From: Acidobacteriota bacterium
GTDB lineage: Bacteria > Acidobacteriota > Terriglobia > Bryobacterales > Bryobacteraceae
NCBI GenBank assembly: GCA_026393985.1
Contig: JAPKZB010000003.1
Location: 1-51,391, forward strand
Length of the DNA: 51,391 nt
Reading direction: 5' to 3'
Notes under the pieces: generated by a model
Told to the model about the DNA's origin: nothing
The model's input: only the letters and a program-made list of their open reading frames with translations
Database searches by the model: none
Made by a program: the position numbers and the translations under genes
Shown here: in pieces, positions 24,122-49,393 of the stretch
Numbering within the stretch: the stretch's first letter is position 1
How the letters are laid out: each line of letters opens with the position of its first letter

Positions 24122-25593
24122 ACCGACGTACCTTTCTTCAGACGCTGCCGGTGGTGGCAAGCGCGCAGCAGCGGCGGAAACCGCGCAACATCATCTTCAT
24201 TCTGAGCGACGACCACCGGTACGATGCGCTGGGTTTTTTGAAGGGCCAGCCGTTTGTGGAGACGCCGCATCTGGACCGGCTGGCGCGGGAGGGCGCGCAC
24301 CTGAAGAATGCCTTTGTGACGACGGCGCTTTGTTCGCCGTCGCGGGCGACGATTCTCACCGGCAAGTACGCGCACAAACATAAGATCGTAGATAACAACA
24401 CGGCCATTCCGGCGGGAACCACTTACTTTTCCAGCCACTTACAGAAAGCGGGTTACAAGACAGCATTCCTTGGTAAGTGGCACATGGGCGGCGAGTCCGA
24501 TGCGCCGCAGCCGGGATTTGACCGCTGGGTATCGTTCCGAGGCCAGGGGACCTACCTGCCAAGCGCGAACGGACTGAACGTGGACGGGAAGAACCTACCC
24601 CAAACAGGGTATATCACGGATGAGTTGACGGACTATGCCGTCGAGTTTATCGAGCAGCAGAAGGGACCGTACTTTCTGTACCTTTCGCACAAGGCGGTGC
24701 ATGCGGAGTTTGTGCCGGCCGAGCGGCACAAGGGGAAATTCAAGGACGCGAAGTTCGTACCGCCGGCATCGCTCGACGCCCCGGCGACGGACCGGCCGAT
24801 GTGGGTGCAGAATCAGCGCAACAGCTGGCACGGGGTGGATTACCCGTATCATTCGACGCTGAATATTGAAGAGTACTACCGGCAGTACGCCGAGACGCTG
24901 TGCGCGGTGGACGAAAGCGTGGGGCGGTTGCTCAAGCTGCTTGAGCGGCGGGGGGAGCTCGATTCGACGCTCTTGATCTACATGGGCGACAACGGGTTCG
25001 CTTTTGGGGAGCACGGGTTGATCGACAAGCGGACGGCGTACGAGGAGTCGATGCGGGTGCCGCTGCTGGCGCGGTGTCCGGAGTTGTTCCGGGGCGGGCA
25101 GACGGTGACGCAGGTGATCGCCAACCTCGACATCATGCCGACGGTGCTCGAGGCGGCGGGGGTGGCGGCGCCGGCGGGCGGGGACGGGGCGAGTTTTCTG
25201 CCGCTGCTCGAGGGCAAGACGGTGACATGGCGCGATTCCCTGCTCTATGAGTATTACTGGGAGCGGAACTTTCCGCAGACGCCGACGATGCACGCGCTGC
25301 GGACGGACCAGTATAAGTACATCCGTTACCACGGCATCTGGGATCTGGATGAGTTATATGACATTCAGAACGACCCGCGGGAGTTACAGAATCTGATCCA
25401 TAGTCCGGCTCACCAGGAGATCGTCCGGAGGATGAACCAACGTTTGTTTGCGATTCTGGAGAGTACGGACGGGATGAATATGCCGCTGTACCGGGACAAG
25501 GGCGGGGTGAGTAACCTGCGTAACCCGAAAGGGGCGGGGGCGGCACCGTTTCCGAAGGCGTTCGAGAGGCCGCCGGCGCGGCCGCGGCGCTAG
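24118..25593 (+). CDS. secreted sulfatase
   Basis: Second sulfatase in the window, 491 aa. An N-terminal export-like segment with RR (MNRRTFLQTLPVVASAQ) precedes IIFILSDDH (metal Asp pair), the formylglycine signature CSPSR beginning at C72, and GKWHMGG. A later MGDNGFAFGEHG supplies further metal ligands. It resembles the GAG/choline-sulfatase branch more than the first sulfatase does. It overlaps the upstream M20 gene by 4 nt and the convergent GH-like gene by 4 nt. The polysaccharide or small-molecule target is not evident. Confidence 0.9.
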   Translation: MNRRTFLQTLPVVASAQQRRKPRNIIFILSDDHRYDALGFLKGQPFVETPHLDRLAREGAHLKNAFVTTALCSPSRATILTGKYAHKHKIVDNNTAIPAGTTYFSSHLQKAGYKTAFLGKWHMGGESDAPQPGFDRWVSFRGQGTYLPSANGLNVDGKNLPQTGYITDELTDYAVEFIEQQKGPYFLYLSHKAVHAEFVPAERHKGKFKDAKFVPPASLDAPATDRPMWVQNQRNSWHGVDYPYHSTLNIEEYYRQYAETLCAVDESVGRLLKLLERRGELDSTLLIYMGDNGFAFGEHGLIDKRTAYEESMRVPLLARCPELFRGGQTVTQVIANLDIMPTVLEAAGVAAPAGGDGASFLPLLEGKTVTWRDSLLYEYYWERNFPQTPTMHALRTDQYKYIRYHGIWDLDELYDIQNDPRELQNLIHSPAHQEIVRRMNQRLFAILESTDGMNMPLYRDKGGVSNLRNPKGAGAAPFPKAFERPPARPRR

Positions 25594-27032
25594 AGGCGAC
25601 GGAACTGGATGGCGTAGAGGTCGGCGTCTTTGAGGGCGACGCGGAGGCGGACGGGTTTGCCGGCCCAGGCGCTCAGGTTGGCTCCGCCCTGCCAGCGGAC
25701 GGGGCGGTCGATTTCATCGCCGATGAGTTCGGCCGATTCGGCGAGTTTGGCGCCGGAGGGGTCTTCGAGGGTGAAGCGGAGGCCGCCCGGGGCGGAGGTG
25801 GAGAAGTTGGCGCTGAGTTCGCTGCCGTCGTTGGTGAAGAGTTTGGTGAGCATTTCGCCTCCGGCGTAGCCGGCGTGGAGGGAGGCGAAGCCGTCGAGGC
25901 GGAGGGTGTAGCGTTCGAGGTGAATCGAGGGCTGGCCGTAGTTCTTGACGACATAGAAGGCCATGTGGCGGGGGCCGGCCAGGATGAGGTTGAGGGCCGG
26001 GTAGTTGGACCGGGAGACCCAGTTTTCGACGCCAAGGCCGGGGCGGAGGAAGGCTTCCAGGAAGGTGCGTTGGTAATGGGTGCCGCCGCGGGAGGTGAGG
26101 AGGACGGCGTCCGAGCAGTCTTTGAAGTAGCCGGGGTCGACGTTGATCAAGCGAGCTTCGGCTTCGGTGAGCACCTGGCGGCCGGGCAGGAAGCGGGCGG
26201 CGAGGGAGACGTAGAGGTGGGGGGCGCGGAAGTAGGCGCTGGTCTGGTTGGTGTAAAGGTGTTCGGGGGGCGCCTGGCCGAAGTCCATTTCGCCCTGGTT
26301 TTCCCAGTCGACGAAGTTGCGGCTGACGGCGCGGGAGATCCAGCGGTAGCCGGTGCCGTTGATTTTCTTGAAGGTGCGGTAGTAGAGGACGTAGCGCTGT
26401 TCGGCTGCGGACCAGAAGGCGAGGTTCTGGGAGTCGAAGGCGCCGTCGCGGAAGACGGGTTCGGGGCGGAGGGTGGTCCAGTGGATGCCGTCGGGGGATT
26501 GGAAGGCGACGAGGCCGCTTTTTTGGGTGCCGGCGATGCCTTTGTAGCGGGCGGCGGGGTCGACGCCGGGGCGGGTATCGAGGAAGGGGGAGAAGTTGTG
26601 CTGGAGCGGGGGGTTGCCGGCGAGGATGACGTTGTTTTCGGCGTGGCCGCGGACGGTGTGGAGGCGGAGGTTGGGGCGGGTGAATTGCGCGCCGCCGGCG
26701 GGGGATTCGGCGTAGCAGTAGACTTCGTCGCCGCGGCCGTCGGCGCCGGCGTTGGGGACGCCGCGGTAGTAGAGGCGAACGAGGTCGCCGTCGGGGATGA
26801 CGGTGACGTAGTTGCAGAAGCGGCCTTCCCAGGGGCGGTCGAAGGCGAAGGCGGAGCCGGTGTCGATGGGGGAGCCGAGGCGGAGTTCGGCGCCGGTGAG
26901 TTTCTCGATGAGGAAGGAGTCGACGAAGAGTTCGCGGCGGTGGCCGAGGGCGAGGGGGGGAGCGGGTTGGGCGGCGGCGGGGACGAGGGGGGCGAGGGCG
27001 GTGGCGAGGCAATGGCGCCGGGAGAGGTGCAT
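25590..27032 (-). CDS. secreted glycoside-hydrolase-like beta-propeller protein
   Basis: Secreted 480-aa protein. A signal peptide (about 1-22, ending AAAQPAPP) leads into a GHRRELFVDSFLIEKL segment typical of a planctomycete/acidobacterial family loosely related to five-bladed GH32/43/117 propellers. Blade-like strands follow (SPDGIHWTTLRPEPVF, WISRAVSRNFVDWENQG), and a beta-sandwich-like tail (about 370-480) ends the chain. Catalytic residues are not certain. The gene faces the sulfatase gene tail to tail with a 4-nt overlap. Carbohydrate processing alongside the sulfatase is plausible but inferred. Confidence 0.75.
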   Translation of the reverse strand: MHLSRRHCLATALAPLVPAAAQPAPPLALGHRRELFVDSFLIEKLTGAELRLGSPIDTGSAFAFDRPWEGRFCNYVTVIPDGDLVRLYYRGVPNAGADGRGDEVYCYAESPAGGAQFTRPNLRLHTVRGHAENNVILAGNPPLQHNFSPFLDTRPGVDPAARYKGIAGTQKSGLVAFQSPDGIHWTTLRPEPVFRDGAFDSQNLAFWSAAEQRYVLYYRTFKKINGTGYRWISRAVSRNFVDWENQGEMDFGQAPPEHLYTNQTSAYFRAPHLYVSLAARFLPGRQVLTEAEARLINVDPGYFKDCSDAVLLTSRGGTHYQRTFLEAFLRPGLGVENWVSRSNYPALNLILAGPRHMAFYVVKNYGQPSIHLERYTLRLDGFASLHAGYAGGEMLTKLFTNDGSELSANFSTSAPGGLRFTLEDPSGAKLAESAELIGDEIDRPVRWQGGANLSAWAGKPVRLRVALKDADLYAIQFRRL

Positions 27033-27083: not shown

Positions 27084-28103
27084 TTAGATGAGTTGAAAGG
27101 TATAGCCTTCGGCGCGGAGGTTGCGATTGGTGCGGGAGACGGCGTACTCGAGGCTGGGCCCCCAGGGGGCGAAGGCGTTTTCGACGTCGTAGGTGATGAG
27201 GTTGGCGATCCAACGGGAGGGGGTGACGGAGCGGGAGGGGGAGGTGGTCCAGTAGGCGTAGCGTTCGTTGCCTTCGCGGCGCCAGCGGGCGATTTTGCGG
27301 ACGATGGGGTAGTTATGGCGGAACGAGGAGCAGCCGAAGAAGCAGAAGACGCGGCAGCGGACATCGACGGCGCCCCATTCACTGGGGTGGCTGTGGGTGT
27401 CGCGCCAACCGGCGTGGTGGACGATGTTCCAGGCGCCGCCGGCGGGGTAGGCGAGGTAGCGGCGGCCGGGGGCGTGGTGGCGGATCAAGGGGGGGAGTTC
27501 GGGATGGATCTGCTCGGCGGTGCGGGGTTCGAGGAGACGGCGGTAGGGGCGGAGGTCAGGGTGGCAATCGGCGGCGGGGGGTGGGCCTTCGGATTCCTCG
27601 AGGAGTTTGGCGGAGTAGCCGTGCTCGATGATTTCGGCGACGGGGATACCGATGAAGGGGAAGCCCATGCGGAAGATTCCGGTGGTGGCGGGGTTGGTTC
27701 CCTCGCCCCAGTCCTGGGTTTTCATGGCATCCGGGGTGGAGCGGCCAAAGCAGGGTCCGCGGCCATGGCGGGCGTGGCCACGGTAGATGACGTGGAGTTC
27801 GGGGGTGGCGAGCCAGTCCCGGAAGACCGATTTATCGGTGGTTTCGCGAATGGTGAAGATGACGCGCTGGCGGTGATTGCGGTATTCGTGGTCGCTGACC
27901 TTTTCAACGTGGGGGAAACGGGGGAGGAGGGGATCGAAGTAGGGATTGAGGAGCCACTCGTTGGGGAGTTGATCGGGGTGGCGTTCGGTGCCGTGGGCGA
28001 TGCAGATGTGGCGGCGTTCGTAGACGGGGGAGAGGGTGGAGTGGGAGGTGGAGCCGGTGTGCTGGCGGCTGATGGCGGGGAGGTGGGCGGGCAGGGAGCT
28101 CAT
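27084..28103 (-). CDS. unknown protein with caspase-like His/Cys pattern (paralogue A)
   Basis: 339-aa cytosolic-looking protein, no signal peptide or membrane segment. I do not recognise a named family. TTDKSVFRDWL then ELHVIYRGHARHGRGPCFG places a strand before G109-H110, as in clan CD (caspase/CHAT) proteases. RCRVFCFFGCSSF then places C258 at the end of a second hydrophobic strand, as a catalytic Cys would be. The His-Cys spacing of about 148 residues is larger than usual in caspases, so the assignment is tentative. It is the tandem paralogue of the gene immediately upstream, which it abuts. Last gene of the LysM cassette. A non-protease role is equally open. Confidence 0.7.
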   Translation of the reverse strand: MSSLPAHLPAISRQHTGSTSHSTLSPVYERRHICIAHGTERHPDQLPNEWLLNPYFDPLLPRFPHVEKVSDHEYRNHRQRVIFTIRETTDKSVFRDWLATPELHVIYRGHARHGRGPCFGRSTPDAMKTQDWGEGTNPATTGIFRMGFPFIGIPVAEIIEHGYSAKLLEESEGPPPAADCHPDLRPYRRLLEPRTAEQIHPELPPLIRHHAPGRRYLAYPAGGAWNIVHHAGWRDTHSHPSEWGAVDVRCRVFCFFGCSSFRHNYPIVRKIARWRREGNERYAYWTTSPSRSVTPSRWIANLITYDVENAFAPWGPSLEYAVSRTNRNLRAEGYTFQLI

Positions 28104-29114
28104 TTAAATCACCTGGTAGGAACATCCCGCGGCGCGGAGACTGCGGTTGGTGCGGGTGACGGCGTCGGCGAGGCTGGGCTGCCAGGAGGCGAAGGCGTTT
28201 TCGACATCGTAAGTGATGAGGTGAGCGACCCAGAGGGCGAGGGTGGGTTCGGAGGAGAGGTTGGTGGTCCAGAAGGCGTAGTGGTCATTGCCGTCGCGCC
28301 GCCATCCGGCGAGGCGGCGGACAACGGGGTAGTTATGAGTAAACGAGTTGCAGCCGAAGTGGCAGAAGACGCGGCAGCGGACGCGGGTAGCGCCCCAGTC
28401 GGAGGGCTGGCTGCGGGTGTTTTGCCAACCGGCGTGGTGGATGACATTCCATTCGTCGCCGGATTGGTAGGCCCAGTAGCGGTCGGCGGGCTGGTGGCCG
28501 TGGAGGAAGGGAGCGAGGCCGGCGCGCAATTGGTCGGGCGTGCGGGGCTGCAGGGAGCCGAGATAGGGGCGGAGCTGGGGGTGGCAGCGGGAGGCCGGGG
28601 GGAGGCCTTCGGACTCTTTGAGCAGGTAGGCGTGATAGCCGTGTTCGGGGATTTCGGCGACGCGGATGGCGAGGAAGGGGAAGCCCATGCGGAACATGCC
28701 GCTGGTGGTGGGGTTGTTGCCTTCGCCCCAGTCCTCGCTGCGTGCGTGATTGGCGTTGACGCGGCCAAAGCAGGGTCCGCGACCGTTGCGGGCGTGGCCG
28801 AGGTATATGACGTGGAGTTCGGGGGTTTCGAGCCACTGGCGGAAGACGGATTTGTCGGTGGTTTCGCGGAGATCAAAGATGACGCGCTGGCGGTGGTTCC
28901 GGTACTCCGAGTTACTCACCTTTTCGACATTGGGGTATTGGGGCAGGACGGAGTCGAGATAGGGTTGTAACTGCCAGGGGGCGGGCAGTTGGTCCTGGTG
29001 GGCTTCGAGGCCTAAGGCGATGCGGAGGCGGCGGCGCTCGTAGGCGGGGGCGAGGGTGGAGTGGGCGGTGGAGCCGGTGTACTGGCGGCTGATGGCGGCG
29101 GGGATGGAACTCAT
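28104..29114 (-). CDS. unknown protein with caspase-like His/Cys pattern (paralogue B)
   Basis: 336 aa, similar to paralogue A along the whole length (shared SRQ.TGST, VEKVS, EYRNHRQRVIF, RETTDKSVFR, GHAR.GRGPCFG, DWGEG.NP, ITYDVENAFA). Candidate catalytic residues are H107 (YLGHARNGRG) and C255 (VFCHFGCNSF). The start is placed at the ATG of 29112-29114, which overlaps the preceding stop as ATGA; a 47-residue low-complexity extension upstream is rejected. The pair looks like a duplication that has diverged under constraint, with the putative catalytic positions kept in both. Confidence 0.7.
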   Translation of the reverse strand: MSSIPAAISRQYTGSTAHSTLAPAYERRRLRIALGLEAHQDQLPAPWQLQPYLDSVLPQYPNVEKVSNSEYRNHRQRVIFDLRETTDKSVFRQWLETPELHVIYLGHARNGRGPCFGRVNANHARSEDWGEGNNPTTSGMFRMGFPFLAIRVAEIPEHGYHAYLLKESEGLPPASRCHPQLRPYLGSLQPRTPDQLRAGLAPFLHGHQPADRYWAYQSGDEWNVIHHAGWQNTRSQPSDWGATRVRCRVFCHFGCNSFTHNYPVVRRLAGWRRDGNDHYAFWTTNLSSEPTLALWVAHLITYDVENAFASWQPSLADAVTRTNRSLRAAGCSYQVI

Positions 29115-29596
29115 TGGCCGGTGGCCTCCAGGAACAGGTCGCTTTGGCGGAAGGCCTGGATGGCGGCGTTGCGCTCCTTTTCCGGAAGTTCCCGGAAGCC
29201 GGGGACGCCGGGGTGGTGGAGGAGGCGGGTGGCGAGGACGTAGACGGCATCGCACAGGCGCAGGCCTTCGGCGAGCGGAGAACGATCGGCGAAGTGGGGG
29301 GCGAGGCGGCGGAGGGCATCGCGGCGGAGGCCGTTCATCTCCTGGCCGAGATAGCGGATCTTCCAGACTTCGTCAGCGACGGCGTTGGCCGGGGCGGAGG
29401 CGGCGAGCACGGCGAGGGCGGGTTCGCGGGCGACGTCGAGGAGCGCCATGGCTTTGCGGCCGGCGGTGGGGAGTTCGGCGGCGGCGAGGGTGGCCGGGTA
29501 GCGGGAGTCGGCGAGAAGTTCCTGGGCGAGGCGGGCGGGCGTGGCGGGGTCGTGCTGGCCGCGGGTGAGTTGTTCGACGAGGGTGAGGGGGGTCAT
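29111..29596 (-). CDS. hypothetical protein of the LysM cassette
   Basis: 161-aa helical-looking protein with no signal peptide and no domain I recognise. Visible segments include LAQELLADSRYPATLAAAEL and GRKAMALLDVAREPALAVLA (Ala/Leu-rich helices), and a C-terminal PEKERNAAIQAFRQSDLFLE. The ATG at 29596 lies 4 nt after the LysM gene stop; a Pro/Ser-rich upstream extension is rejected because it overlaps that gene. Tight packing with the LysM and caspase-like genes implies a common function; an adaptor or chaperone would be a guess. Confidence 0.7.
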   Translation of the reverse strand: MTPLTLVEQLTRGQHDPATPARLAQELLADSRYPATLAAAELPTAGRKAMALLDVAREPALAVLAASAPANAVADEVWKIRYLGQEMNGLRRDALRRLAPHFADRSPLAEGLRLCDAVYVLATRLLHHPGVPGFRELPEKERNAAIQAFRQSDLFLEATGQ

Positions 29597-29600
29597 GGGT

Positions 29601-30236
29601 TCAGCTTCCGTGGAGTTGGCGGAGGGCCGAGCGGGTGGCGTCGTCCGGTTCGCCGGACTCCGGGAGTTGGCGTTCGCGCTGGAAGGCGCGGAGGGCGGCG
29701 CGGGTGGCATCGCCGAGTTCGCCGTCTTCGCCGCCGCAGTGGTAGCCGAGGTTAGCGAGGCGGCGCTGGAGGCCGGAGAGGGTGTCGAGCGGATCCATGT
29801 GGCCGAGTTGGAGGCGGTGCTCTTCCTGGCGGCCGTTTTCCGTGAGGACGAGGTGCACCTCGCGGGCGTTGGGCGGGGCGACGAACTCGATCATGCCGTC
29901 GCCATCGGAGGCACCTTCCGCGCGGTTGCCGTCGACGTTGGCCGAGTAGCGGACGTTGCAGCGAGGACGGCGTTCGAAGTCGAGGAGGCGGAGCCGGACT
30001 TTGGCGGGGGTGCCGAGGCGGACGAACTTATGGGTCTGGTCGGTGGCCTTCTGGTGCTCTTTGAGGCGCTTGTCCGGGATGAAGAGGACATCGCCGGGCA
30101 GCAGGATATTGGGATCTTCGCGGCGCGCCTTGAGTTGGGAGTTGTTTGGATGGTTCCAGATGGACTCCCAGCGCAGGCCATGGTCGTGGGCGATGTTGAG
30201 GAGGCAATCGCCGGCCTCGATGGTGTAGTCGGGCAT
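29601..30236 (-). CDS. LysM and peptidoglycan-binding domain protein
   Basis: 211 aa. An N-terminal LysM-type module (about 1-57: YTIEAGDCLLNIAHDHG, LWNHP-like IWNHPNN, DPNILLPGDVLFIPDKRLKE), a central beta domain (about 66-140), and a C-terminal PG_binding_1 domain (about 152-207: LQRRLANLGYHCGGEDGELG, ALRAFQRERQLP). This architecture without a signal peptide is familiar from genes next to VgrG/PAAR-type spike and effector genes in Proteobacteria and myxobacteria, where it may act as a loader or effector part; that link is from memory. No VgrG, PAAR or sheath gene is in this window. Confidence 0.85.
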   Translation of the reverse strand: MPDYTIEAGDCLLNIAHDHGLRWESIWNHPNNSQLKARREDPNILLPGDVLFIPDKRLKEHQKATDQTHKFVRLGTPAKVRLRLLDFERRPRCNVRYSANVDGNRAEGASDGDGMIEFVAPPNAREVHLVLTENGRQEEHRLQLGHMDPLDTLSGLQRRLANLGYHCGGEDGELGDATRAALRAFQRERQLPESGEPDDATRSALRQLHGS

Positions 30237-30242
30237 GGTGGT

Positions 30243-30785
30243 CTACTCGTCGGCCGGCGGGAGGAGCCGGGTGAAGACGCCGGTGCGCTGGTAGTTTTCG
30301 ATTTCGGCGTTGCGCTGGGGGTTGGGCTGGGCGAGGAAGAGATCGGCTTCCATTTGGGCGTCGAGTTCGGACTCGCCGCCGGTTAAGCGACGGAGGGCGA
30401 GATAGGCTTCGTCGGCGATGCGGGTGACGGGGACGGGGACTTCGATGCGCTCGTGGTAGGGGGGCAGGGGGACGGTGCGGAAGTCGGTGAGGGCGCGGCG
30501 GAGATAGGCGGTGGTTCTGGCTTCGAGGCCCGTGACGAGGCGGCCGAAGCGAGCGAGGCGGGGGTAGTCGTTCACCCGTTCGAGGACAGGCCAGGAGGCT
30601 TCTTCGAGCAGGGCGAGGGTGGCGGCGGCGGTAGGGCCGAGACCGTCCTTTTGCTCGGCGAGGGCGGCGAGACTCTCGATGGCTGGCCGGTTGGCGGCGT
30701 TGTAGGTGTTGTAGAGCTGCTCGAGGGCGGGAGCATCGTCGGGGGCGGTCCGCTGCCAAGCAGCGAGAAACTCTTCCTTGGTCAT
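30243..30785 (-). CDS. hypothetical protein heading the LysM cassette
   Basis: 180 aa, no recognised domain. It is mostly helical and acidic, with ALEQLYNTYNAANRPAIESL and LALLEEASWPVLERVNDY, a Pro-rich middle (VPLPPYHERIEVPVPV), and a C-terminal NPQRNAEIENYQRTGVFTR. No signal peptide. A good ribosome site (AAAGGA) precedes the ATG at 30785. It lies 6 nt before the LysM gene, so it is part of the same operon. A structural-tail-like role is only a guess. Confidence 0.72.
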   Translation of the reverse strand: MTKEEFLAAWQRTAPDDAPALEQLYNTYNAANRPAIESLAALAEQKDGLGPTAAATLALLEEASWPVLERVNDYPRLARFGRLVTGLEARTTAYLRRALTDFRTVPLPPYHERIEVPVPVTRIADEAYLALRRLTGGESELDAQMEADLFLAQPNPQRNAEIENYQRTGVFTRLLPPADE

Positions 30786-30845: not shown

Positions 30846-33800
30846 CTAACAAAGCCCGAGCAGGCCGACAACTGCGGCGGCCGAGCCGTCACGGACCCAG
30901 GCGTCGAGCTGGGAGACATCCTTCAACTGCTGGCCGCGCTGGCGGTGGACTTCGACGTAGCGGCAGCCGAGTTCGTCGAGGGCGGTCATGTCGCCCCAGA
31001 GGCGTTCGAACTGGGCGACGGGGAAGACGTCTTCCTGACCGCGGCCCCAGCGGCGCTTCACCTCCTTGATGGTGATGTAGCTGGGCATGCGCTGGGCCGT
31101 GCGGCGGACGGCGGCGGCGACGTGGGCGGGGTCGGCGAGTTGGGAGCGGGTGAGGCCGAAGGCGGCCAGAAGCGACTCGATGGTGATCCAGTAGCTGCCG
31201 GTGTTGTAGAAGCGGAGTCCGAACTCGATTTGCTCGCTGGGCAGGCAGAGGCCTTCAACAAGGCGGGGCTTCCCGTTGACGAGGGCGAGTCCGCCGCCGT
31301 GGTCGTCGTACTGGCGGCCGATGACTTCGACGGTCATGCCGGCTCCGGAGGCGATGTGGTGGCCGAGCAGGTCGGCGGCGGGGGTGGCGCCGAGGGTGTC
31401 GATGTTATGCAGGAAGAGATAGTCGAGGGCGGGCTGTTCGGCGAGGAGGGCGGCGAGAGTGCCGTTGCGGAGGAGATTGGGGAGTTCGTACCAGTGGCCG
31501 ACGGGGTGGATGCACTGGGAGGCGAGATTGTCGGTGTAGTCGCTGGCTTCGCCGGCGGCGCGGACCCATTGCAGGAGGCTGGAGCGGCCGCTTTCGCGCA
31601 CCTTTTGCTTCTGGGCGTCGAGCTGCTGTTGGGGGAGGACCTCCCAGAGATAGCGCAGGTCGGCGACGGTGGGGACCATGCGGAGGCCGATGCTGCGGCC
31701 GGCCGAGACGCGGACGCCGGTGGCGGCGATGGGGGCGTAGGTGAGGTAGCTGGTGGTGACGAGATGGGGCACGCCGGCGCGGCGCGCCTTTTCACGCTGG
31801 ATATCGAGAAAGCTCCAGTAGCGGTTGCCGATGCGGTGGAAGGGATGGAGGGCTTTGACGACGCCGGCGCCTTTGGTCCAGCGGCTGCCGACGCCGCCGG
31901 CCATGGTGACCATGGCGAGGCGACCGTGGCGGAGGGCTTGGTCGCCGAGGGCGGAGTGTTGAGCGGTAGGGGTGGCGACGTGTTCGGGGCGGACGTCTTC
32001 GATGAGGGTATTGGCGGGGAGGCGGTTTTGCGCAAGGCCGACGCGGCCGGCGCGGTAGTCGGCGCGGAGCTGTTCGTGGGCGGCGGGGTCGAAGCCGTTG
32101 GCGGCGAGGAGTTGGGCGAGTTCGGCGCCGGCGCCGCGGTGGGCGGCGGCCTCTTTGGGCAGGAGGCGTTCAAAGAGGGCTTCGGTGTGGCTGCTGTACT
32201 GGTGGGCGAAGCGGGTGAGTTCGGCGCGGCGTTCGGGGGTGAGGAGGCGGGGCTCCTGGCGGAGGTCGGCGGGGGCGCGGAGGAGATAGTAGGGGGCGCT
32301 GAGGAGGGCGTCGGCGCCGGGGCGGAGGTCGGCCATGGTGCCGTGTTCGTTGATGGTGAAGTCGTAGACGACGGGTTCGACGGCGAAGGGGAAGCTGGCG
32401 GCCATGGCCTGTTTGGTTTCAGCCAGGATGGAGGGCATGGCGGCGAGGGCGGCCGGGCGGAGGGCGGGAGAGAAGACGAAGCCCATGCCGCCGCCGCTCA
32501 TGCCGCCGAGCATCCAGAAGCCCCAGAATCCGTCGCCGAAACGGGCGCGGCACTGCGCGATGAGGGCTTCGGTGTAGGCGTTGCCGGCCCAGGGGATGAT
32601 GGACTGAATGGGGCCGTCGTAGTTGGCCTGGGTGAGCGAGGCGAGGCGCTGGATGTCGCCCTGGCGCAGGGCTTCCTGCAATTGATCGAGGAGGGCGACG
32701 GCCTGCTGGCGGCTCTGCCATTCGGGCCCGCTGCGCAGGAGATAGCGCTCGGTGCACATTTCGAGAATGGGCCCGACGTCCTGACTCATCCCGCCGTGGA
32801 CGAGCACGAGCGACTCTTCGAGGCGGCGGCGGGCGGCGGCGGGGACCTCGTCGAGGAGACGGTGGCGGGGCAGGAGGCGGCCGCGGCTGACGCCGAACTC
32901 GGGGTCGCCGGGGGCGGCCTCTTCGGCGGCGATGAGTTTGATGCCGGGCCAGACGCCGCCGGAATCCTGCCAGCCGCCGCCGCTGCCGCCGAGCCATTCG
33001 CCGAGGATGGCGCGGGCGGCGACCTGGCGGCGGTCGTCCTCGGCGAGGGGGCCGGTGAGGGCGCGGATCTGGCCGGTCGAGCGCATGCAGAGGGAGATGA
33101 GGCAGGCCAGCAGGTTGGTGCTGACGGCGAAGCGGCTGCCTTTGGGGATGTCGTTGACCTGGCTTACCAGTTCGAGGCCGCAACCTGCGCGGCCGGTGAG
33201 GCGGGCGAGGAGGGCCGGGAGGCGCTGGCCGCTGCCTTCGAGACCGGCCGGAACGAGGCCGCTGGCGATGACGGCGGCTTTGAGGAGGCCGAGATAGTCG
33301 CGGGCGAAGTCGAAGACTTCGTCGAGGGAGGAGATATCGACGGCGGCGCCGAGGTCGACGCTGACGAGGCGGAGGACGGGTTCGTCGATGACGCGGAGGA
33401 AGGCTTCAACGGGGGGCCGGGGAGCGGCGCCGGAGCCGCGGACGGCGAGGTCGACGGAGATATTGATGACCCGGGCGCCCGCGGGGTAGTCCATGGCGAG
33501 GAAGAAGATGTCGCTCCAGGCGCTGTGGGAGAGGTCCATGCGGACGGGGGTGGCTTCGTGGAGGACGGGGAAGGGGCCGGGGGTGGTGAGTTCGGGGCGG
33601 AGGCGGAGGGGATAGTCGGCGAGGTGGCCGGTGCGGAACATCCACTGGTTGCCGGGGAAGCGGCGGACGCTTTGGCGGACCTGGTCGGCGAGGGTTTGGA
33701 AGGCGAGGCCGCGGTAGGCGGTGGCGAGGGCGCTGCTGAGGGCGGGGCTCGCCAGGCCAGGGGCGAGAAGTTCGGCGATGGCCTGTTCAAAACGGCGGGC

Positions 33801-34043
33801 GCGGATGTGTTCGATGGCGCGGTAGGGGATGAGGGCTGAGGCGGGAGCGAGAGGGCCGATGGAGAAGCGGTGGAGCGTGGAGAGGAAGACGAGGGCGCGG
33901 ACGCGGTCGTAGAGATTGGTGGCGTCCTTGCGGAAGGCTTCGAGGCGGGCGGCTTCGGCGAGGAGGTCGGCGAGAGGGCGGCCGGCGGTCCACTCTTCAA
34001 AGGGGGCGTGGGCGCGGGCCGTGATGCGGTCGACGAGGGTCAT
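30846..34043 (-). CDS. GHMP-kinase/UDPGP nucleotidyltransferase fusion protein
   Basis: 1065-aa two-part enzyme. The N-terminal half resembles fucokinase-type GHMP kinases: VRMDLSHSAWSD (sugar site, about 167-178), PKGSRFAVSTNLLA (about 300-313, in the place of the Gly-rich ATP loop), GGSGGGWQDSGGVWPGIKL (about 352-370) and GGMSGGGMGFVF (about 513-524). The C-terminal half has a UDPGP pyrophosphorylase loop, MAGGVGSRWTKGAGVVK (about 714-730), plus HNIDTLGATP and FYNTGSYWITIES. It would phosphorylate a sugar and activate it to a nucleotide sugar. The ATP loop lacks the usual GLGSS, so kinase activity is uncertain. It overlaps the next upstream gene by 4 nt (ATGA). The sugar is unknown. Confidence 0.8.
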   Translation of the reverse strand: MTLVDRITARAHAPFEEWTAGRPLADLLAEAARLEAFRKDATNLYDRVRALVFLSTLHRFSIGPLAPASALIPYRAIEHIRARRFEQAIAELLAPGLASPALSSALATAYRGLAFQTLADQVRQSVRRFPGNQWMFRTGHLADYPLRLRPELTTPGPFPVLHEATPVRMDLSHSAWSDIFFLAMDYPAGARVINISVDLAVRGSGAAPRPPVEAFLRVIDEPVLRLVSVDLGAAVDISSLDEVFDFARDYLGLLKAAVIASGLVPAGLEGSGQRLPALLARLTGRAGCGLELVSQVNDIPKGSRFAVSTNLLACLISLCMRSTGQIRALTGPLAEDDRRQVAARAILGEWLGGSGGGWQDSGGVWPGIKLIAAEEAAPGDPEFGVSRGRLLPRHRLLDEVPAAARRRLEESLVLVHGGMSQDVGPILEMCTERYLLRSGPEWQSRQQAVALLDQLQEALRQGDIQRLASLTQANYDGPIQSIIPWAGNAYTEALIAQCRARFGDGFWGFWMLGGMSGGGMGFVFSPALRPAALAAMPSILAETKQAMAASFPFAVEPVVYDFTINEHGTMADLRPGADALLSAPYYLLRAPADLRQEPRLLTPERRAELTRFAHQYSSHTEALFERLLPKEAAAHRGAGAELAQLLAANGFDPAAHEQLRADYRAGRVGLAQNRLPANTLIEDVRPEHVATPTAQHSALGDQALRHGRLAMVTMAGGVGSRWTKGAGVVKALHPFHRIGNRYWSFLDIQREKARRAGVPHLVTTSYLTYAPIAATGVRVSAGRSIGLRMVPTVADLRYLWEVLPQQQLDAQKQKVRESGRSSLLQWVRAAGEASDYTDNLASQCIHPVGHWYELPNLLRNGTLAALLAEQPALDYLFLHNIDTLGATPAADLLGHHIASGAGMTVEVIGRQYDDHGGGLALVNGKPRLVEGLCLPSEQIEFGLRFYNTGSYWITIESLLAAFGLTRSQLADPAHVAAAVRRTAQRMPSYITIKEVKRRWGRGQEDVFPVAQFERLWGDMTALDELGCRYVEVHRQRGQQLKDVSQLDAWVRDGSAAAVVGLLGLC

Positions 34044-43469: not shown

Positions 43470-46249
43470 CAGCCCAGATCGTACTTCTCGATGTGCACCG
43501 AGGCGTCGCCCTTGACGAGCACCGGCTTCTTGAAGATGCCTTCGAGCTCTTCGAGGTACTGATTCTTGTGGGACTTGAGGACTTTGGCGACCTCCGGATG
43601 CACCCGCAGCATAACCTCCTTGCCGTCGACGGCGCGGGAGAGTTTCTGCGCTTCGGCCAGGATCTCGCCGATCACGGTCTGCACGCTCTTCACGGTACCC
43701 GAACCTTCGCAGTAGGTGCAGGGCATGCACAGACTGCGTTCGAGCGACTGTTTGACGCGCTTGCGGGTGATCGCCACCAGGCCGAAGTCGTTGAACTGGA
43801 GAATTTTGTACGGCGCCCGGTCCACTCGCATGGCCTCTTCGAGCGCCTGCATTACCTTCTGCCGGTTCTTGCGCTCATCCATGTCGATGAAGTCGACGAC
43901 GATGATGCCGCCGAGATCGCGCAGACGGATCTGCCGGACGATCTCTTTGACCGCTTCGGTGTTGGTTTTGACGATCGTATCTTCGAGGCGGTTCGACTTA
44001 CCGACGTACTTGCCGGTGTTGATGTCGATGGCGACAAGGGCTTCAGTCTGGTTGATGACGATGTAGCCGCCGGACTTGAGCCATACCTTCGGCCGCAGTG
44101 CTTTTTCGAGTTCAGCGGTGATGTTGAAGGTATCGAAGATGGGCACGGGGCGCGTCCACAGCTTCACCTTATTGACGAGCGCCGGCTGGAAGCGCTGGAC
44201 AAAGTTAACCGTGCTTTCGTACAACTCTTCGTTGTCGAGCCAGATGGTTTTGTAGTCGGTCGTCAACTGGTCGCGCAGCGTACGCTGCACGATGTCAAGA
44301 TCGTGATGGACGAGCAGGGGCGCGGCCTTCTTTTCGGCCTTGGAGCGGATATCGAGCCAGAGGTTGTAGAGGAAGTTCATGTCGGCGGCGAGTTCCTCTT
44401 CGCTCTGCCCTTCCCCGGCGGTCCGGATGATGAAGCCGCCCGGCATGCCGGTGCGATGGGTCTGGAGAATCCGCTTGAGCCGGAGCCGCTCTTCGTCGGA
44501 GCTGATTTTGCGGGACACGCCGTTGTGGTCGGTCGTCGGCATGTAGACGCAGAAGCGGCCGGGCAGGGCGATGTGCGAGGTGATGCGGGCGCCCTTGGCC
44601 CCGATGGGCTCTTTCGAGATCTGGACCAGGATCTCCTGGCCCGGCTTCAGCAGGTCGGTAATCTGGGGCAGGGGCGGACGTTCGCGGCGATCGCGGTCCC
44701 CGCGGTCGCTCCGCTCGCTCCGTTCGCTCCGTTCGGGGCGTTCGGAGCGTTCACTGCGTTCCGGGCGCTCGCGCGTCTCGGCCGGGGCCACCGCCTCGGC
44801 GATGGGGGCTGGTGCATTCGGATCTTCGATTTCGTTGCCGCGCTCGCGCGGGCCGCGACGGCGTCCGCGGGAGCGGCGGCCACGGGCCTGGAAGCGGGCG
44901 TTGCGGTCGCGGTCGCGCAGGGCGGCGGTGAGACTCTGGGGCTGCCGGGCCGGTTCGGGGCCGTCGGCGCCATCTACAGCACTGAAAGAGGGTTCGTCGT
45001 CCCCTTCGCCATCACTTTCGCCCTCTGCCTCTTGGTGTGCCGAGGCGTTCTCGGCATCAGCGAGGGCGTCTTCGGCGGCGAGAGCGGCCTCAGCGGCGGC
45101 CTGCGCCGCGTCGAGTTCGTCCTCTTCCTCGTCGACGTCCTCGTCGATCTCATGCCGGGCCTCTTCGATGGCTGCCTCCTCGTCGGCCTCAATCTCCTCT
45201 TCGACGCTATGGGCGGTTTCGAGGCGTGCTTCCGGCTCGGGGGTGGGCTCGGAAACCGCTACGACGGCCGCGACGATGGGGGGCGGCTCGGGAGTGGCTT
45301 CCGGCTCCGGCGCGGCGACGATGGGCGGCGGTTCGGGGGCGGCAACCGCCTCGACCTGGGCCTCGACCTGGGCCTCGACCTGGGCCTCGACTTGGGCCAG
45401 CACCTGTTCAACGACCGCCTCATTTTCAACTTTCGCCGCCACGGGTTCGACGACGGCTTCGTGGGTCTGGATGGGAGGCCGAACGGGCTGGGGCCGGCGA
45501 TACTTGGCCAGGGATTCGCCCGGCAGCACAATCGGCTCAACCAGAGAGGGCGCCCAGATGGACCCGCTCCCGGGAGCCTGGGCCTCCGGCTGCGCCTCGA
45601 TCTCATCGGGCTCATTGTCGCCCGCTTCGCCGTGGGAGTACCCTTCGTCGGCGGGAGCCTCCTCGGCACTGGCGTACTTGGACTCCGGCAGATTGCCCGA
45701 TCCTCTTTCCCGGCGTCCGCGCCGGCGGCCACGGCGACCGCGTCCGCGATCGCGGTCCCCGCCCCGATCCCCGCGGCGCCCGTCATCGATACCTGCGGCG
45801 ATTCCTGCGGCGCCACTAGCGGAGACTGGATCGGCGCCGGAGGCTTCCTCCTCGCCCTCCAGATCACCGCCTAGCGGGGCGTCTTCATCCACTACCGGCG
45901 CAGCGGCCAGGGGAGCCACCGGGCGGCGGTCGCGGTCGCGGTCGCGCCGGTGTCCCCCGCCGGAGCGCTCCCGCTCCGGCCGCGGCTCATCACCACCGAC
46001 TTTGTCGAGATCGTCGTGGTGTTCTTCAAAGAAGTCCGAGACGTAGAGGAACCCATCGCGTTCCAGTCCCAGGTCGACAAAGGCCGACTGCATGCCAGGC
46101 AGAACCCGCGTCACTCTTCCTTTGTGAATACTGCCGGCCAGGGAATACTCGTTGGCCCGCTGAAAGTACAGTTCAACTAATTGATCATCCTCAAGAATCG
46201 CCACTTTTGTTTCGTGGCGGTTCGATGAGATCACTAACTCTTTACTCAT
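43469..46249 (-). CDS. rng: RNase E/G family ribonuclease with giant insert in S1 domain
   Basis: Endoribonuclease for rRNA/mRNA processing, 926 aa. The S1 domain starts normally (about 37-82: GSIHKGRVTRVLPGMQSAFVD), is interrupted by about 445 residues of low-complexity sequence (about 83-529; acidic, Arg- and Pro-rich, VEAQ and SER/PER repeats), and then resumes (about 530-560: LLKPGQEILVQISKEP). The catalytic core has D742 in AIDINTGK and D786 in VVDFIDMDERK; the Zn-link cysteines are near 841-847 (CMPCTYC). A GAGGAG site precedes the ATG. The insert replaces the C-terminal scaffold of E. coli RNase E as a disordered region. rne would be an equally fair symbol. Confidence 0.93.
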   Translation of the reverse strand: MSKELVISSNRHETKVAILEDDQLVELYFQRANEYSLAGSIHKGRVTRVLPGMQSAFVDLGLERDGFLYVSDFFEEHHDDLDKVGGDEPRPERERSGGGHRRDRDRDRRPVAPLAAAPVVDEDAPLGGDLEGEEEASGADPVSASGAAGIAAGIDDGRRGDRGGDRDRGRGRRGRRRGRRERGSGNLPESKYASAEEAPADEGYSHGEAGDNEPDEIEAQPEAQAPGSGSIWAPSLVEPIVLPGESLAKYRRPQPVRPPIQTHEAVVEPVAAKVENEAVVEQVLAQVEAQVEAQVEAQVEAVAAPEPPPIVAAPEPEATPEPPPIVAAVVAVSEPTPEPEARLETAHSVEEEIEADEEAAIEEARHEIDEDVDEEEDELDAAQAAAEAALAAEDALADAENASAHQEAEGESDGEGDDEPSFSAVDGADGPEPARQPQSLTAALRDRDRNARFQARGRRSRGRRRGPRERGNEIEDPNAPAPIAEAVAPAETRERPERSERSERPERSERSERSDRGDRDRRERPPLPQITDLLKPGQEILVQISKEPIGAKGARITSHIALPGRFCVYMPTTDHNGVSRKISSDEERLRLKRILQTHRTGMPGGFIIRTAGEGQSEEELAADMNFLYNLWLDIRSKAEKKAAPLLVHHDLDIVQRTLRDQLTTDYKTIWLDNEELYESTVNFVQRFQPALVNKVKLWTRPVPIFDTFNITAELEKALRPKVWLKSGGYIVINQTEALVAIDINTGKYVGKSNRLEDTIVKTNTEAVKEIVRQIRLRDLGGIIVVDFIDMDERKNRQKVMQALEEAMRVDRAPYKILQFNDFGLVAITRKRVKQSLERSLCMPCTYCEGSGTVKSVQTVIGEILAEAQKLSRAVDGKEVMLRVHPEVAKVLKSHKNQYLEELEGIFKKPVLVKGDASVHIEKYDLG
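45349..45396. repeat. four 12-bp tandem units coding VEAQ repeats
   Basis: Four head-to-tail copies of CCTCGACCTGGG (the last with one change) lie inside the disordered insert of the RNase E/G gene and encode VEAQ units. Copy number is likely to vary between strains. Confidence 0.9.
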
Positions 46250-46418
46250 CGCTCACTCTCCTCACAGAGCAAGCAGCCAAACGTTACGGCGCAAGTAGGG
46301 CAAGAATATCACGCAGGCGGCAACAGGGCCGGCCCCGGCGGAAAATGGAATCCGAAATCAAATCTTGGTCTGTCCTCTACGCCGGAGCTGCGTCTGCCGC
46401 TGCATCCAGTTCGATTCA

Positions 46419-47510
46419 TCAATTCACAAAACGCCGAAGCCGAACATTATGCACAAGCCCCAGCATCATAAAAACGCTCAACATGCCGGATCCCCCGCTG
46501 CTCATGAAGGGAAGCGGAATGCCCGTTACAGGCATCCGGCCCACTACCATGCCAACGTTCACCAGCAGGTGAAAAAGCAATAACGAGCAGATGCCCATGC
46601 AGATATACATCCCCGCGCGGTCCGGCGAGGTCTGTGCGTTCTGCACGATCTGCATCAACAACAAAAAATACAACCCAAGGACGACAACTACGCCGACAAA
46701 TCCGTGCTCCTCGGCAAAGGCCGAGAAGATAAAGTCTGTATGCGGCACCGGGAGGAACTGCAGTCTGGTCTGCGTTCCCTGCGTCACTCCCTTGCCCCAC
46801 ATGCCCCCGTTTCCGATGGCAATTTTGGATTGAATCACTTGATAGCCTTCGCCCTTCGGGTCCCGGCTGGGATCGAGAAACGTCTCAATCCGGCTCTTCT
46901 GATAATCCTTGAGTAAGAACCAGCTCGACGGAATCAACACCGCCACCACAATGCCCAAAATCAGCGCATACTGCCAGCGCAGGCCCGCCAGGAAGATCCC
47001 CGTGGCGAGAATGGGTAGATAGGTGAGAGAGGTGCCCAAATCCGGCTGCTTCATTACGAGAGACATCGGCAGCCCGACCAGACCGATGAGCTTCAACAGA
47101 TCCCGCCAGTGAAGGGCGTCTGTTTTCAGCTCGGTGAGGAACCGGGCCACCATAAGAACTATGACAATCTTAGCGAATTCCGAGACCTGTAGGAGTACAC
47201 CCCCCGGCAGTGCTATCCACCGCCGGGCGCCGAACACCTTGGTCCCCACTACAAACGTCAACAGCAACAATATCAGGATCCCGGCGTACAGCAGCGGGAC
47301 CTGGCCAAGCAACGTGTGATAGTCAATCGAACTGATCAACCACATCAGCAGCAGACCCAAAAGCACCCACACCACCTGTTTCCACCACGCGTTATGCCAC
47401 TTGGTGCCCTGCGTCGCGCTGTAGATCTGCAGCACGCCGAGGCCGCAAAGGAACAGCGAGAGCAGCAGCAAAGCCCAGTCGATATCCCGCAATGTCCGGT
47501 AGGAAGCCAT
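46419..47510 (-). CDS. rodA: rod-shape peptidoglycan polymerase RodA
   Basis: SEDS-family glycosyltransferase of the elongasome, 363 aa with about ten membrane helices. Motifs include DYHTLLGQVPLLYAGI, a conserved PDLGTSLTYLPI and an RLQFLPVPHTDFIFSAFAEEHGF loop with the catalytic-type Asp/Glu, followed by GIPLPFMSSGGSGML. Its ATG shares one base with the stop of mrdA, so the polymerase and its partner transpeptidase are co-translated. Last gene of the mre operon before the RNase gene about 170 nt on. Confidence 0.95.
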   Translation of the reverse strand: MASYRTLRDIDWALLLLSLFLCGLGVLQIYSATQGTKWHNAWWKQVVWVLLGLLLMWLISSIDYHTLLGQVPLLYAGILILLLLTFVVGTKVFGARRWIALPGGVLLQVSEFAKIVIVLMVARFLTELKTDALHWRDLLKLIGLVGLPMSLVMKQPDLGTSLTYLPILATGIFLAGLRWQYALILGIVVAVLIPSSWFLLKDYQKSRIETFLDPSRDPKGEGYQVIQSKIAIGNGGMWGKGVTQGTQTRLQFLPVPHTDFIFSAFAEEHGFVGVVVVLGLYFLLLMQIVQNAQTSPDRAGMYICMGICSLLLFHLLVNVGMVVGRMPVTGIPLPFMSSGGSGMLSVFMMLGLVHNVRLRRFVN

Positions 47511-49393
47511 CAGTTTACGGCAAACCCCTTCTGCCCGAGCGGCGCGAGGGCGAGCGTGGGCACGCGGGATACGTTGCGAGCTTTCTTGTCGAAATAAATC
47601 TTCATCACATCCCGTACCATCGGCCCGGCCAAATTGCCGTGTTCTCCATTTTCAAACAACGCCGCCACAACAATTTCCGGATTGGTCCGCGGCGCAAAGC
47701 CGACAAACCAGGCGTTATCCCGCAGATCTTTGGCCACGGTCGCCCCCTTGGCCCGCACATCGTACCCATACAGCTGCGCCGTCCCGGTTTTCCCGCAAAC
47801 CTCAATGCCCGGCAGACGCGCGACGCCACCCGTTCCGCCCAGATTGACGACGCTGTACATGCCGTACACCACGCTGCCGACGTTGGCCGGGTTAACCTGC
47901 AGCTTGTGCAACTCCCGTTTGTTCGGATCGGTGACCAGATGCGGGCGCGACCACATGCCGCCGTTGGCGATCCCGCCAATCATCACAGCCAACTGAATCG
48001 GCGTCACGTTCACATAGCCCTGGCCAATACCCACGTTCACCGTGTCGCCGCCCATCCACTTCTGCCGCAAAGTCCGGGCCTTCCATTGCGAGGAGGGCAG
48101 GAGGCCCTTGCCTTCAAACGGCAGATCGATGCCCGTCTCCCGGCCAAGTCCTAGCTGCTCACCGTACTCGTAGATCTTGTCAATGCCCATCAGATTTGCC
48201 GCGCTATAGAAAAAGACGTCGCAACTCTGCGCCATGGCCCGCTGCAGATTTACCCGGCCGTGGCCGGACCGGGCGTGGCAGCGGAAGTACCGGCCGTAAA
48301 AGGGAATGCCCCCGTTGCACTGGAATGTCGTCTGGTCATCGATGACCCCGGACTCGAGCCCGGCGAGTGCCACGAGCGGCTTGAAGGTCGACCCGGGCGA
48401 GAAGTTCGACTGGATCGCCCGGTTAAACATTGGCTTGTCCGGGTTCAGCACGATCTCGTCCCAATCCTTGCGCCGGATGCGGCCGGCGAACTTGTTGGCG
48501 TCATAGGCCGGGCGGCTGACCATGGCGAGCACCTCACCGGTCCGCACGTCGAGCGCCACGACGGCACCTTTGCGGCCTTCGAGCGTCATCTCGGCCACGA
48601 TCTGCAGGTCGAGGTCGATGGTCAATTGCAGACTGCGCCCCGGAATCGCGTCCTTGTAGCCGATGAGTTCCCGCTCGTTGCCTTTCGAGTCCACGACGGA
48701 TTGCCGCTCACCGTCGGTGCCCATCAGGACATCGTTGTACTGCCGCTCAATTCCGGCTTTGCCGATGACATCGCCCTGGTTGTACTTGGCGAACTCGGGC
48801 TGGTCGAGTTCATTTTCCGTCACCTCGCCGACGTAGCCGATGACGTGCGCGAGCAGGTTGTCTTTCGGGTACATCCGGTGCTGCACGTGCGCCAACTCCA
48901 ATTCCGGAAAGGTATCCGGATCATTGTGGCTCTCCACAAACGAGATCTCGGCCGGGGTCAACTCCTCTTTCACAACAATAGCCCGGTACTTCGGCACCGA
49001 CTTCCAACGGCGCAAGCGGCCCGCGAGATCCTCGACGTCCAGGTTGAGCCCGGCGGCAATCGCCGGGAGGTGCTCCTCCTTAAGATTTTCACGGGAGAGG
49101 ATGACCGAGAAAGACGAGTGATTGTCCACAATCACGCGGCCTTCGCGGTCGAGGATTTTGCCGCGCGCCGCCAGCATGGGGGTGGATTTGATCCGGTTCC
49201 GGTCGGCCGCCTCGGTGTAGATTTCGTTCTCCTGCACCTGCAGGTTCCAGAAACCGGCCAGGATGAATAGAAAAACGGCGACGATCACGTACTGAAAAAA
49301 GGCGATCCGGCCCGCGGCAAAGGTGGTGTCATCGCGGAGTACGGCCGGGTCTAACTTTTCGTGCTGAGTTGGATCGTGCAGGTGCGGCGCCAC
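47510..49393 (-). CDS. mrdA: penicillin-binding protein 2 (transpeptidase)
   Basis: Class B PBP partner of RodA, 627 aa. A single N-terminal membrane helix (about 33-50) precedes a dimerisation/pedestal region with the usual RNRIKSTPMLAARGKILDR. The transpeptidase motifs are S335-T-F-K (SPGSTFKPL), SCD (SQSCDVFFYS) in the SxN position, and KTGTAQ. GSTFKPL and GMSPIQL-like TPIQLAVM are as in MrdA. It starts 36 nt beyond mreD's stop and overlaps rodA. Confidence 0.96.
   Translation of the reverse strand: MAPHLHDPTQHEKLDPAVLRDDTTFAAGRIAFFQYVIVAVFLFILAGFWNLQVQENEIYTEAADRNRIKSTPMLAARGKILDREGRVIVDNHSSFSVILSRENLKEEHLPAIAAGLNLDVEDLAGRLRRWKSVPKYRAIVVKEELTPAEISFVESHNDPDTFPELELAHVQHRMYPKDNLLAHVIGYVGEVTENELDQPEFAKYNQGDVIGKAGIERQYNDVLMGTDGERQSVVDSKGNERELIGYKDAIPGRSLQLTIDLDLQIVAEMTLEGRKGAVVALDVRTGEVLAMVSRPAYDANKFAGRIRRKDWDEIVLNPDKPMFNRAIQSNFSPGSTFKPLVALAGLESGVIDDQTTFQCNGGIPFYGRYFRCHARSGHGRVNLQRAMAQSCDVFFYSAANLMGIDKIYEYGEQLGLGRETGIDLPFEGKGLLPSSQWKARTLRQKWMGGDTVNVGIGQGYVNVTPIQLAVMIGGIANGGMWSRPHLVTDPNKRELHKLQVNPANVGSVVYGMYSVVNLGGTGGVARLPGIEVCGKTGTAQLYGYDVRAKGATVAKDLRDNAWFVGFAPRTNPEIVVAALFENGEHGNLAGPMVRDVMKIYFDKKARNVSRVPTLALAPLGQKGFAVN

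Follow-up and report, generated by a model that had tools for sequence, protein, structure and literature searches.

A putative VgrG-less type VI secretion effector cassette with a LysM/PG_binding_1 loader in a Bryobacteraceae bacterium

Introduction

The DNA analyzed here, referred to as the window, is a 51,391-nt stretch of contig JAPKZB010000003.1 from an Acidobacteriota bacterium of the family Bryobacteraceae, whose assembly comprises 5.9 Mb in 96 contigs. Positions 27084-30785 of the window hold five genes on the minus strand, which are transcribed in the order E, D, C, B, A, and the question raised by this locus is what such a cassette does for the cell. An earlier reading, made from the letters alone and referred to here as the sequence-only reading, had suggested an orphan effector or a defence-like module. 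The best explanation, which we hold at a probability of roughly 0.6, is a type VI secretion system (T6SS) effector cassette in which D is the loader, A and B are cargo effectors, and E and C most likely provide immunity. It is termed orphan because VgrG was not found in the same locus. The evidence consists of the gene content, the recurrence and co-occurrence of the genes, a cassette-free site, T6SS genes in the carriers and the adjacency of D and VgrG within the D family; delivery, toxicity, immunity and protease activity are what we infer.

In the proposed mechanism D, a LysM/PG_binding_1 protein that lacks a signal, would dock A and B on a VgrG whose gene lies elsewhere in the genome. B and A would be injected as cargo into a neighbouring bacterium and would act in the target cytoplasm, most plausibly as Cys/His-dependent hydrolases, with a caspase-like protease as the leading, unproven candidate. 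E and C would shield the producer as cognate immunity proteins, which is the least certain step. To our knowledge, few T6SS effectors are known in Acidobacteriota. If the explanation is true, it would extend the T6SS arsenal of this phylum by an undescribed effector family and a probable immunity family. It would also mean that the LysM loader can travel in cassettes that have no VgrG, and genes for signal-less LysM/PG_binding_1 proteins could then serve as a handle for orphan effectors.

Gene content of the cassette

The open reading frame (ORF) list and the gene caller agree on the five minus-strand genes, and neighbouring genes overlap by up to 4 bases or lie up to 6 bases apart, as expected from the tight coupling described in the sequence-only reading. 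The gene caller, whose training set was 12 genes of the window, missed or shortened some genes, such as A and one D in L025. Its start for C, 29596, is the better reading and avoids the overlap with D that the longest ORF would have.

Gene D (29601-30236, minus strand) encodes a 211-aa protein made up of LysM, a middle part that may be Ig-like, and PG_binding_1. PG_binding_1 is matched in Pfam with an E-value of 1.5e-13 and LysM falls below its cut-off, which agrees with the earlier naming of a LysM/PG_binding_1 protein. Both domains appear in a published list of six domain families for vgrG loci (PMC10673891, cited here, like the other papers below, from part of its text). In Ketobacter alkanivorans the LysM protein Kalk_10460 is required for binding of the effector Kalk_10455 to VgrG, and Kalk_10450 confers immunity (PMC10673891). 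On the basis of the Pfam matches, this precedent and relatives located directly after VgrG, D is a putative VgrG-to-effector loader.

For A, B, C and E, Pfam gives no family at an E-value of up to 1 (the longest ORF was used for C), and NCBIfam and PADLOC give none at an E-value of up to 5. Pfam identifies no spike, sheath or PAAR among the five cassette proteins, in line with what had been noted before. A hydrophobic leader is absent from all five proteins of the window, as judged by hydropathy and not by a trained predictor.

The D family and type VI secretion

Of the 257 genomes of the order, 50 carry a relative of D. Their surroundings were surveyed in 40 hand-picked stretches from D matches together with the eight cassette loci, a non-random set of 48 loci with 49 D copies between 150 and 300 aa long (L085 may count one D twice). 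Of the 49 copies, 17 share their strand with a VgrG no more than three genes away, which is directly upstream in 15 cases. Six of the 49 are cassette copies, and none of these six has VgrG within three genes. The stretch L076 contains a Pfam-confirmed run of gp25-like, TssF, TssG, a ClpB/ClpV-type ATPase, VgrG and D. The genome of the window has the same gene clusters on C1 (L056), where a Pfam-confirmed VgrG directly precedes a D copy.

TssF is present in 45/50 D-positive genomes vs 105/207 D-negative genomes, a comparison that is not corrected for kinship. TssF is also found in all seven carriers of A within the order, and VgrG is encoded in 8/8 cassette genomes. The carrier outside the order (G584) has VipA, VipB, Hcp, TssF, TssG and VgrG by Pfam. 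The earlier suggestion of an orphan effector thus gains support, since the D family sits directly downstream of VgrG, every carrier encodes VgrG and the cassette recurs.

Where D has no VgrG nearby, its neighbours are often large. In 16 of 22 listed loci, drawn from the 26 non-cassette D copies without VgrG, the next downstream gene on the same strand encodes at least 480 aa. Pfam analysis of a selection of D neighbours gives PLD over the cut-off, OmpA or PG_binding over the cut-off in three, and zincin-like and metallo-beta-lactamase matches below the cut-off.

D was not found in phages, and was found in two of 72,556 plasmid records. In plasmid NZ_CP020372.1 the D relative directly follows VgrG; the second plasmid match has no annotated VgrG within 9 kb.

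Three further observations concern these loci. A Thiodictyon plasmid (L141:6465-12719) encodes in a row VgrG, two PG-binding proteins, a zincin-type protein with the motif HELGH (our own motif reading), a HEAT protein and a DcrB-related protein, a candidate effector/immunity set. A family of proteins of about 650 aa is encoded in 11 survey loci (L056, L073, L074, L075, L076, L083 and other T6SS loci), directly after D in ten of them. Its two members scanned, from L076 and L056, have no Pfam match, and the family is possibly a resident T6SS effector or spike accessory. The genome of the window also has a second VgrG locus (L183:2486-7159, minus strand) with VgrG, a DUF4123 protein, a 123-aa gene and a 529-aa protein without a Pfam match, which is likely an effector locus of its own.

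Recurrence, selection and insertion site

Seven of the order's 257 genomes contain relatives of A, as does one further genome (G584) among 396 drawn from the phylum. Within the class of G584 (38 genomes) no relative of A was found in the other 37. The closest copies on named contigs come from metagenome-assembled Bryobacteraceae and Acidobacteriaceae. No relative of A was found in viral contigs (three scans) or in plasmids.

A survey of these neighbourhoods finds that the cassette recurs in all eight genomes, so that the refuting outcome named in the sequence-only reading, homologue neighbourhoods in which no cassette recurs, did not occur. Six genomes of the genus share the order E-D-C with one to three A copies after it, with minor differences: E and part of D are missing at a contig end in G092, a contig start cuts E in G094, G095 has an additional C-like gene after A, and one A copy of G091 has an in-frame TAG. 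G126, from another genus, has the order A-E-D, two C-like genes and, after them, a gene for a 749-aa protein that matches Trypsin_2 and Endonuclease_NS. G584 has the order D-E-A-D, with another D-like piece at the contig end. As an observation in its own right, the 749-aa protein of G126 (L021:7582-9831, minus strand) is a fusion of a trypsin-like peptidase and a DNA/RNA non-specific endonuclease, located 24 bases past a C-like gene that has an apparent signal peptide.

Measured against near orthologues, the ratio of non-synonymous to synonymous substitution rates (dN/dS) comes to 0.35 for A, 0.29 for C, 0.15 for D and 0.20 for E; the neighbouring gene F gives 0.12. B and its copy in G092 differ by very few changes (dN 0.013, dS 0.021; dN/dS 0.62), and A vs B gives 0.58. 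The near orthologues of the cassette genes therefore look constrained at the sequence level. Since the unit recurs and dN/dS against near orthologues is low, the cassette is more than a chance arrangement.

The cassette is an insertion between two flanking genes, Z and F. Gene F (30846-34043, minus strand), a chromosomal neighbour, encodes 1065 aa and lies outside the cassette; its sole Pfam match is UDPGP at residues 843-959. F is kept in 14 of the 19 genomes of the genus, several of which have no cassette beside it. Gene Z (25590-27032, minus strand, 480 aa) forms the other border and is likewise outside the cassette. In the sister genome G097 only a 194-aa gene lies between Z and F, leaving a cassette-free site, and the order Z, 194-aa gene, F without a cassette is the one seen in L174. 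In G095 the cassette is located between the 194-aa gene and F. A duplicate of the first 40 codons (95%) of the 194-aa gene is present at the cassette edge of this genome (L017:9997-10116), which points to recombination at the same site as the route of import. The 194-aa gene has no significant match in the stretch of the window compared with it. G094 carries the cassette and the F gene on different contigs, and the cassette flanks differ in G093, G126 and G584.

The putative effectors A and B

Gene A (27084-28103, minus strand) encodes 339 aa and gene B (28104-29114, minus strand) encodes 336 aa. The ORFs and alignments A1 and A3 are consistent with tandem paralogues, as proposed in the sequence-only reading: the proteins are 65% identical, and H110 and C258 of A correspond to H107 and C255 of B. 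Both residues are invariant in 12/12 aligned homologues, counted as 11 rows of alignment A3 plus L025 in alignment A7 with one copy that has an in-frame stop excluded. Six further positions (H104, C118, H161, C180, C250 and H263) are also invariant, for a total of eight His/Cys columns. The H110/C258 dyad is therefore not singled out, and its invariance is weak evidence. A and B are putative effectors, and A is a possible Cys/His hydrolase.

The sequence-only reading had compared the two proteins with clan CD proteases. The part of this idea that stands is the placement of the residues. The segment preceding H110 is at the 99.7th percentile of beta propensity, the top rank in A and level with one at residue 83, and the segment preceding C258 is at the 97.9th percentile. 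The resulting layout, strand-GH-...-strand-C-...-strand, has the right order for clan CD. The two residues are 148 apart and a large insert would be required, which counts against a caspase-like protein.

Comparison with known families gave the other part of the idea no support. A 12-row alignment of A was compared by hhalign with 20 CHAT and 20 Peptidase_C14 domains from related genomes. The E-values are 0.55 for CHAT and 0.12 for C14, and the alignment of A against its own reverse (0.014) is better than either; a comparison with one C25-like sequence was also null. CHAT vs C14, as a positive control, gives 9e-6. The A profile is thin (effective number of sequences, Neff, 2.26) and the power is low, so these nulls weaken the caspase idea without doing more. 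A block scan around the catalytic residues at five settings (286 to 318 positions) is ambiguous: against C14, H110 ranks 5th-24th and C258 109th-251st, and against CHAT, C258 ranks 7th-49th and H110 44th-166th.

A structure prediction, one of the checks proposed earlier, was made for A. The AlphaFold2 model has a mean predicted local distance difference test score (pLDDT) of 42.7, from a seven-row alignment of sequences from the window, L014 and L015, and Foldseek of this low-confidence model returned nothing at an E-value of 0.001 or below. Taken together, a caspase-like identity for A is a tentative assignment, with somewhat less than even odds. Papain-like use of the invariant C118 is also conceivable. 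Among other enzyme types, a zinc metallopeptidase and a Ser hydrolase were rejected for A, since the A protein of the window has no HExxH and no GxSxG, respectively.

The small proteins E and C

Gene E (30243-30785, minus strand) encodes a 180-aa protein that is probably helical, and gene C (29111-29596, minus strand) encodes a 161-aa protein. The sequence-only reading had left them as two separate proteins of unknown family, which needs correction. Direct identity is about 21% (alignment A5), and two intermediates match both proteins: L017X matches C at 4e-12 and E at 2e-5, and L025E matches C at 5e-7 and E at 7e-6. Because these intermediates are common to both, sequence comparison makes E and C diverged paralogues. 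The motif R-[VIL]-[CA]-D-x-x-Y is present in 11 of the 12 rows of alignment A5.

An E/C profile run over the 257 genomes finds eight positives, which are the same seven genomes as for A and G143. The G143 match is weak and partial (E-value 1e-4), and we take it to be chance. A and E/C are thus paired almost exclusively with each other, and D is common to many other loci. E/C relatives in G095 and G126 start with a hydrophobic leader by hydropathy. AlphaFold2 gives an all-alpha model of E with a mean pLDDT of 46.0 from a five-row alignment, and Foldseek of this low-confidence model finds no match at an E-value of 0.001 or below. Paralogy, distribution and the model together suggest that E and C are putative immunity or co-loading proteins.

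Alternative explanations

The main rival explanation gives E and C a loading role. The cassette and its T6SS delivery would be unchanged, and E and C would be chaperones or co-adaptors that keep A and B on D, with immunity located elsewhere or not needed. Within the genus E and C flank D and the A copies number one to three, and G126 has two C-like genes between D and the gene for the trypsin-nuclease protein; both arrangements are what co-adaptors might show. The apparent signal peptide on two E/C relatives suits immunity better than loading, and E/C are confined to cassette genomes, apart from the one weak match, and are not seen at the other D loci surveyed. We therefore consider a chaperone role unlikely, with a chance that is still substantial. 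Several results also weigh against the orphan effector reading in general. A has no match in Pfam, NCBIfam, PADLOC or PDB sequences (the PDB comparison was made for A alone), and its comparisons with CHAT, Peptidase_C14 and the C25-like sequence were null. The number of E/C genes per locus is one to three and does not track the number of A genes (E/C:A is 2:2 in the window, 2:3 in G091, 3:1 in G095, 3:1 in G126 and 1:1 in G584), which fits a shared partner no less than one-to-one immunity. Among the D neighbours, many lack a Pfam match and one is a subunit of DNA polymerase III. A tblastn search of the fetched stretches of the eight cassette loci, four of which are on contigs of just 6 to 8 kb, found no relative of VgrG or Hcp (PAAR was outside that search).

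The remaining alternatives do not involve T6SS delivery. Clan CD proteases are found in prokaryotic defence, and with the conserved His and Cys of A and B the cassette might be an intracellular defence or cell-suicide module, in which caspase-like A and B are restrained by E and C and triggered by phage or by wall damage sensed by D. The defence-like option of the sequence-only reading finds no support in PADLOC, as A to E have no match there at an E-value of up to 5. D relatives are often linked to VgrG, Pfam finds no NTPase match in the cassette and relatives of A were not found in viral contigs or plasmids, so that a defence module is improbable. The LysM and PG_binding_1 matches of D would also suit a module acting on the envelope of the producer, with D bound to peptidoglycan and A and B processing wall or surface proteins. 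The lack of a hydrophobic leader on all five proteins and the position of D relatives after VgrG make this even less probable. LysM proteins are core parts of extracellular contractile injection systems (PMC10673891), which D and its cargo might serve instead of a T6SS; since T6SS-type genes adjoin D relatives, this is very improbable on the present evidence, in which the genome-wide searches covered T6SS families.

The orphan T6SS effector cassette therefore remains the preferred explanation. In a more specific form of it, A and B would be new caspase-like proteases delivered as free T6SS cargo by the LysM loader, a duplicated E/C immunity family would surround the loader gene, and the G126 unit would add a trypsin-plus-nuclease effector with its own E/C-type partners. 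It is doubtful that all of this applies, although the combination is not far-fetched.

Relation to known systems

Systems of this kind have been described before; the families to which the effectors and their partners belong appear undescribed in Pfam, NCBIfam, PADLOC and, for A, PDB sequences. The closest likeness is to T6SS vgrG loci with a stand-alone LysM protein, such as Kalk_10465/10460/10455/10450 of Ketobacter alkanivorans, where a LysM gene is located beside effector and immunity genes (PMC10673891); the D family, too, follows VgrG. Compared with that locus, the cassette has no adjacent VgrG, its effectors are duplicated and of an undescribed family, and D is surrounded by two small proteins that are paralogues.

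Both caspase-like domains of toxins and immunity proteins of the HEAT type have been described (PMC3482391). The clan CD domains of polymorphic toxins, for some of which a toxin role is proposed, have a catalytic His and Cys pair, as is conceivable for A and B. In contrast, A and B are stand-alone proteins of about 340 aa, the delivery routes described there for the polymorphic toxins are other than T6SS, and A, known from sequence alone, has no profile similarity to CHAT or C14. Imm-HEAT (PMC3482391) and the HEAT protein by the VgrG-LysM locus of NZ_CP020372.1 are helical proteins beside an effector gene, as E and C probably are. The HEAT-type similarity of E/C covers 20 columns around R-[VIL]-C-D, but the hhalign probability is just 4%.

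A papain-like protease toxin is associated with T6SS (PMC12136450). Cpe1/Cpi1 are like the proposed cassette in that a cysteine protease toxin associated with T6SS is paired with its cognate immunity protein; the papain-like fold of Cpe1 sets it apart from A by description alone. Tvp-type spike accessories were considered as a match and rejected, as LysM is absent from the main text of PMC13373197. No caspase-type T6SS effector was found in the titles and abstract openings of part of the relevant literature. To the extent of that coverage, a caspase-like cargo effector would, if confirmed, represent a new T6SS enzyme class.

Base composition of the window

Apart from the cassette, the window has one region of lower G+C content. 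At 46001-48000 the G+C fraction is 0.54-0.59, vs 0.60-0.72 in the remaining 1-kb steps.

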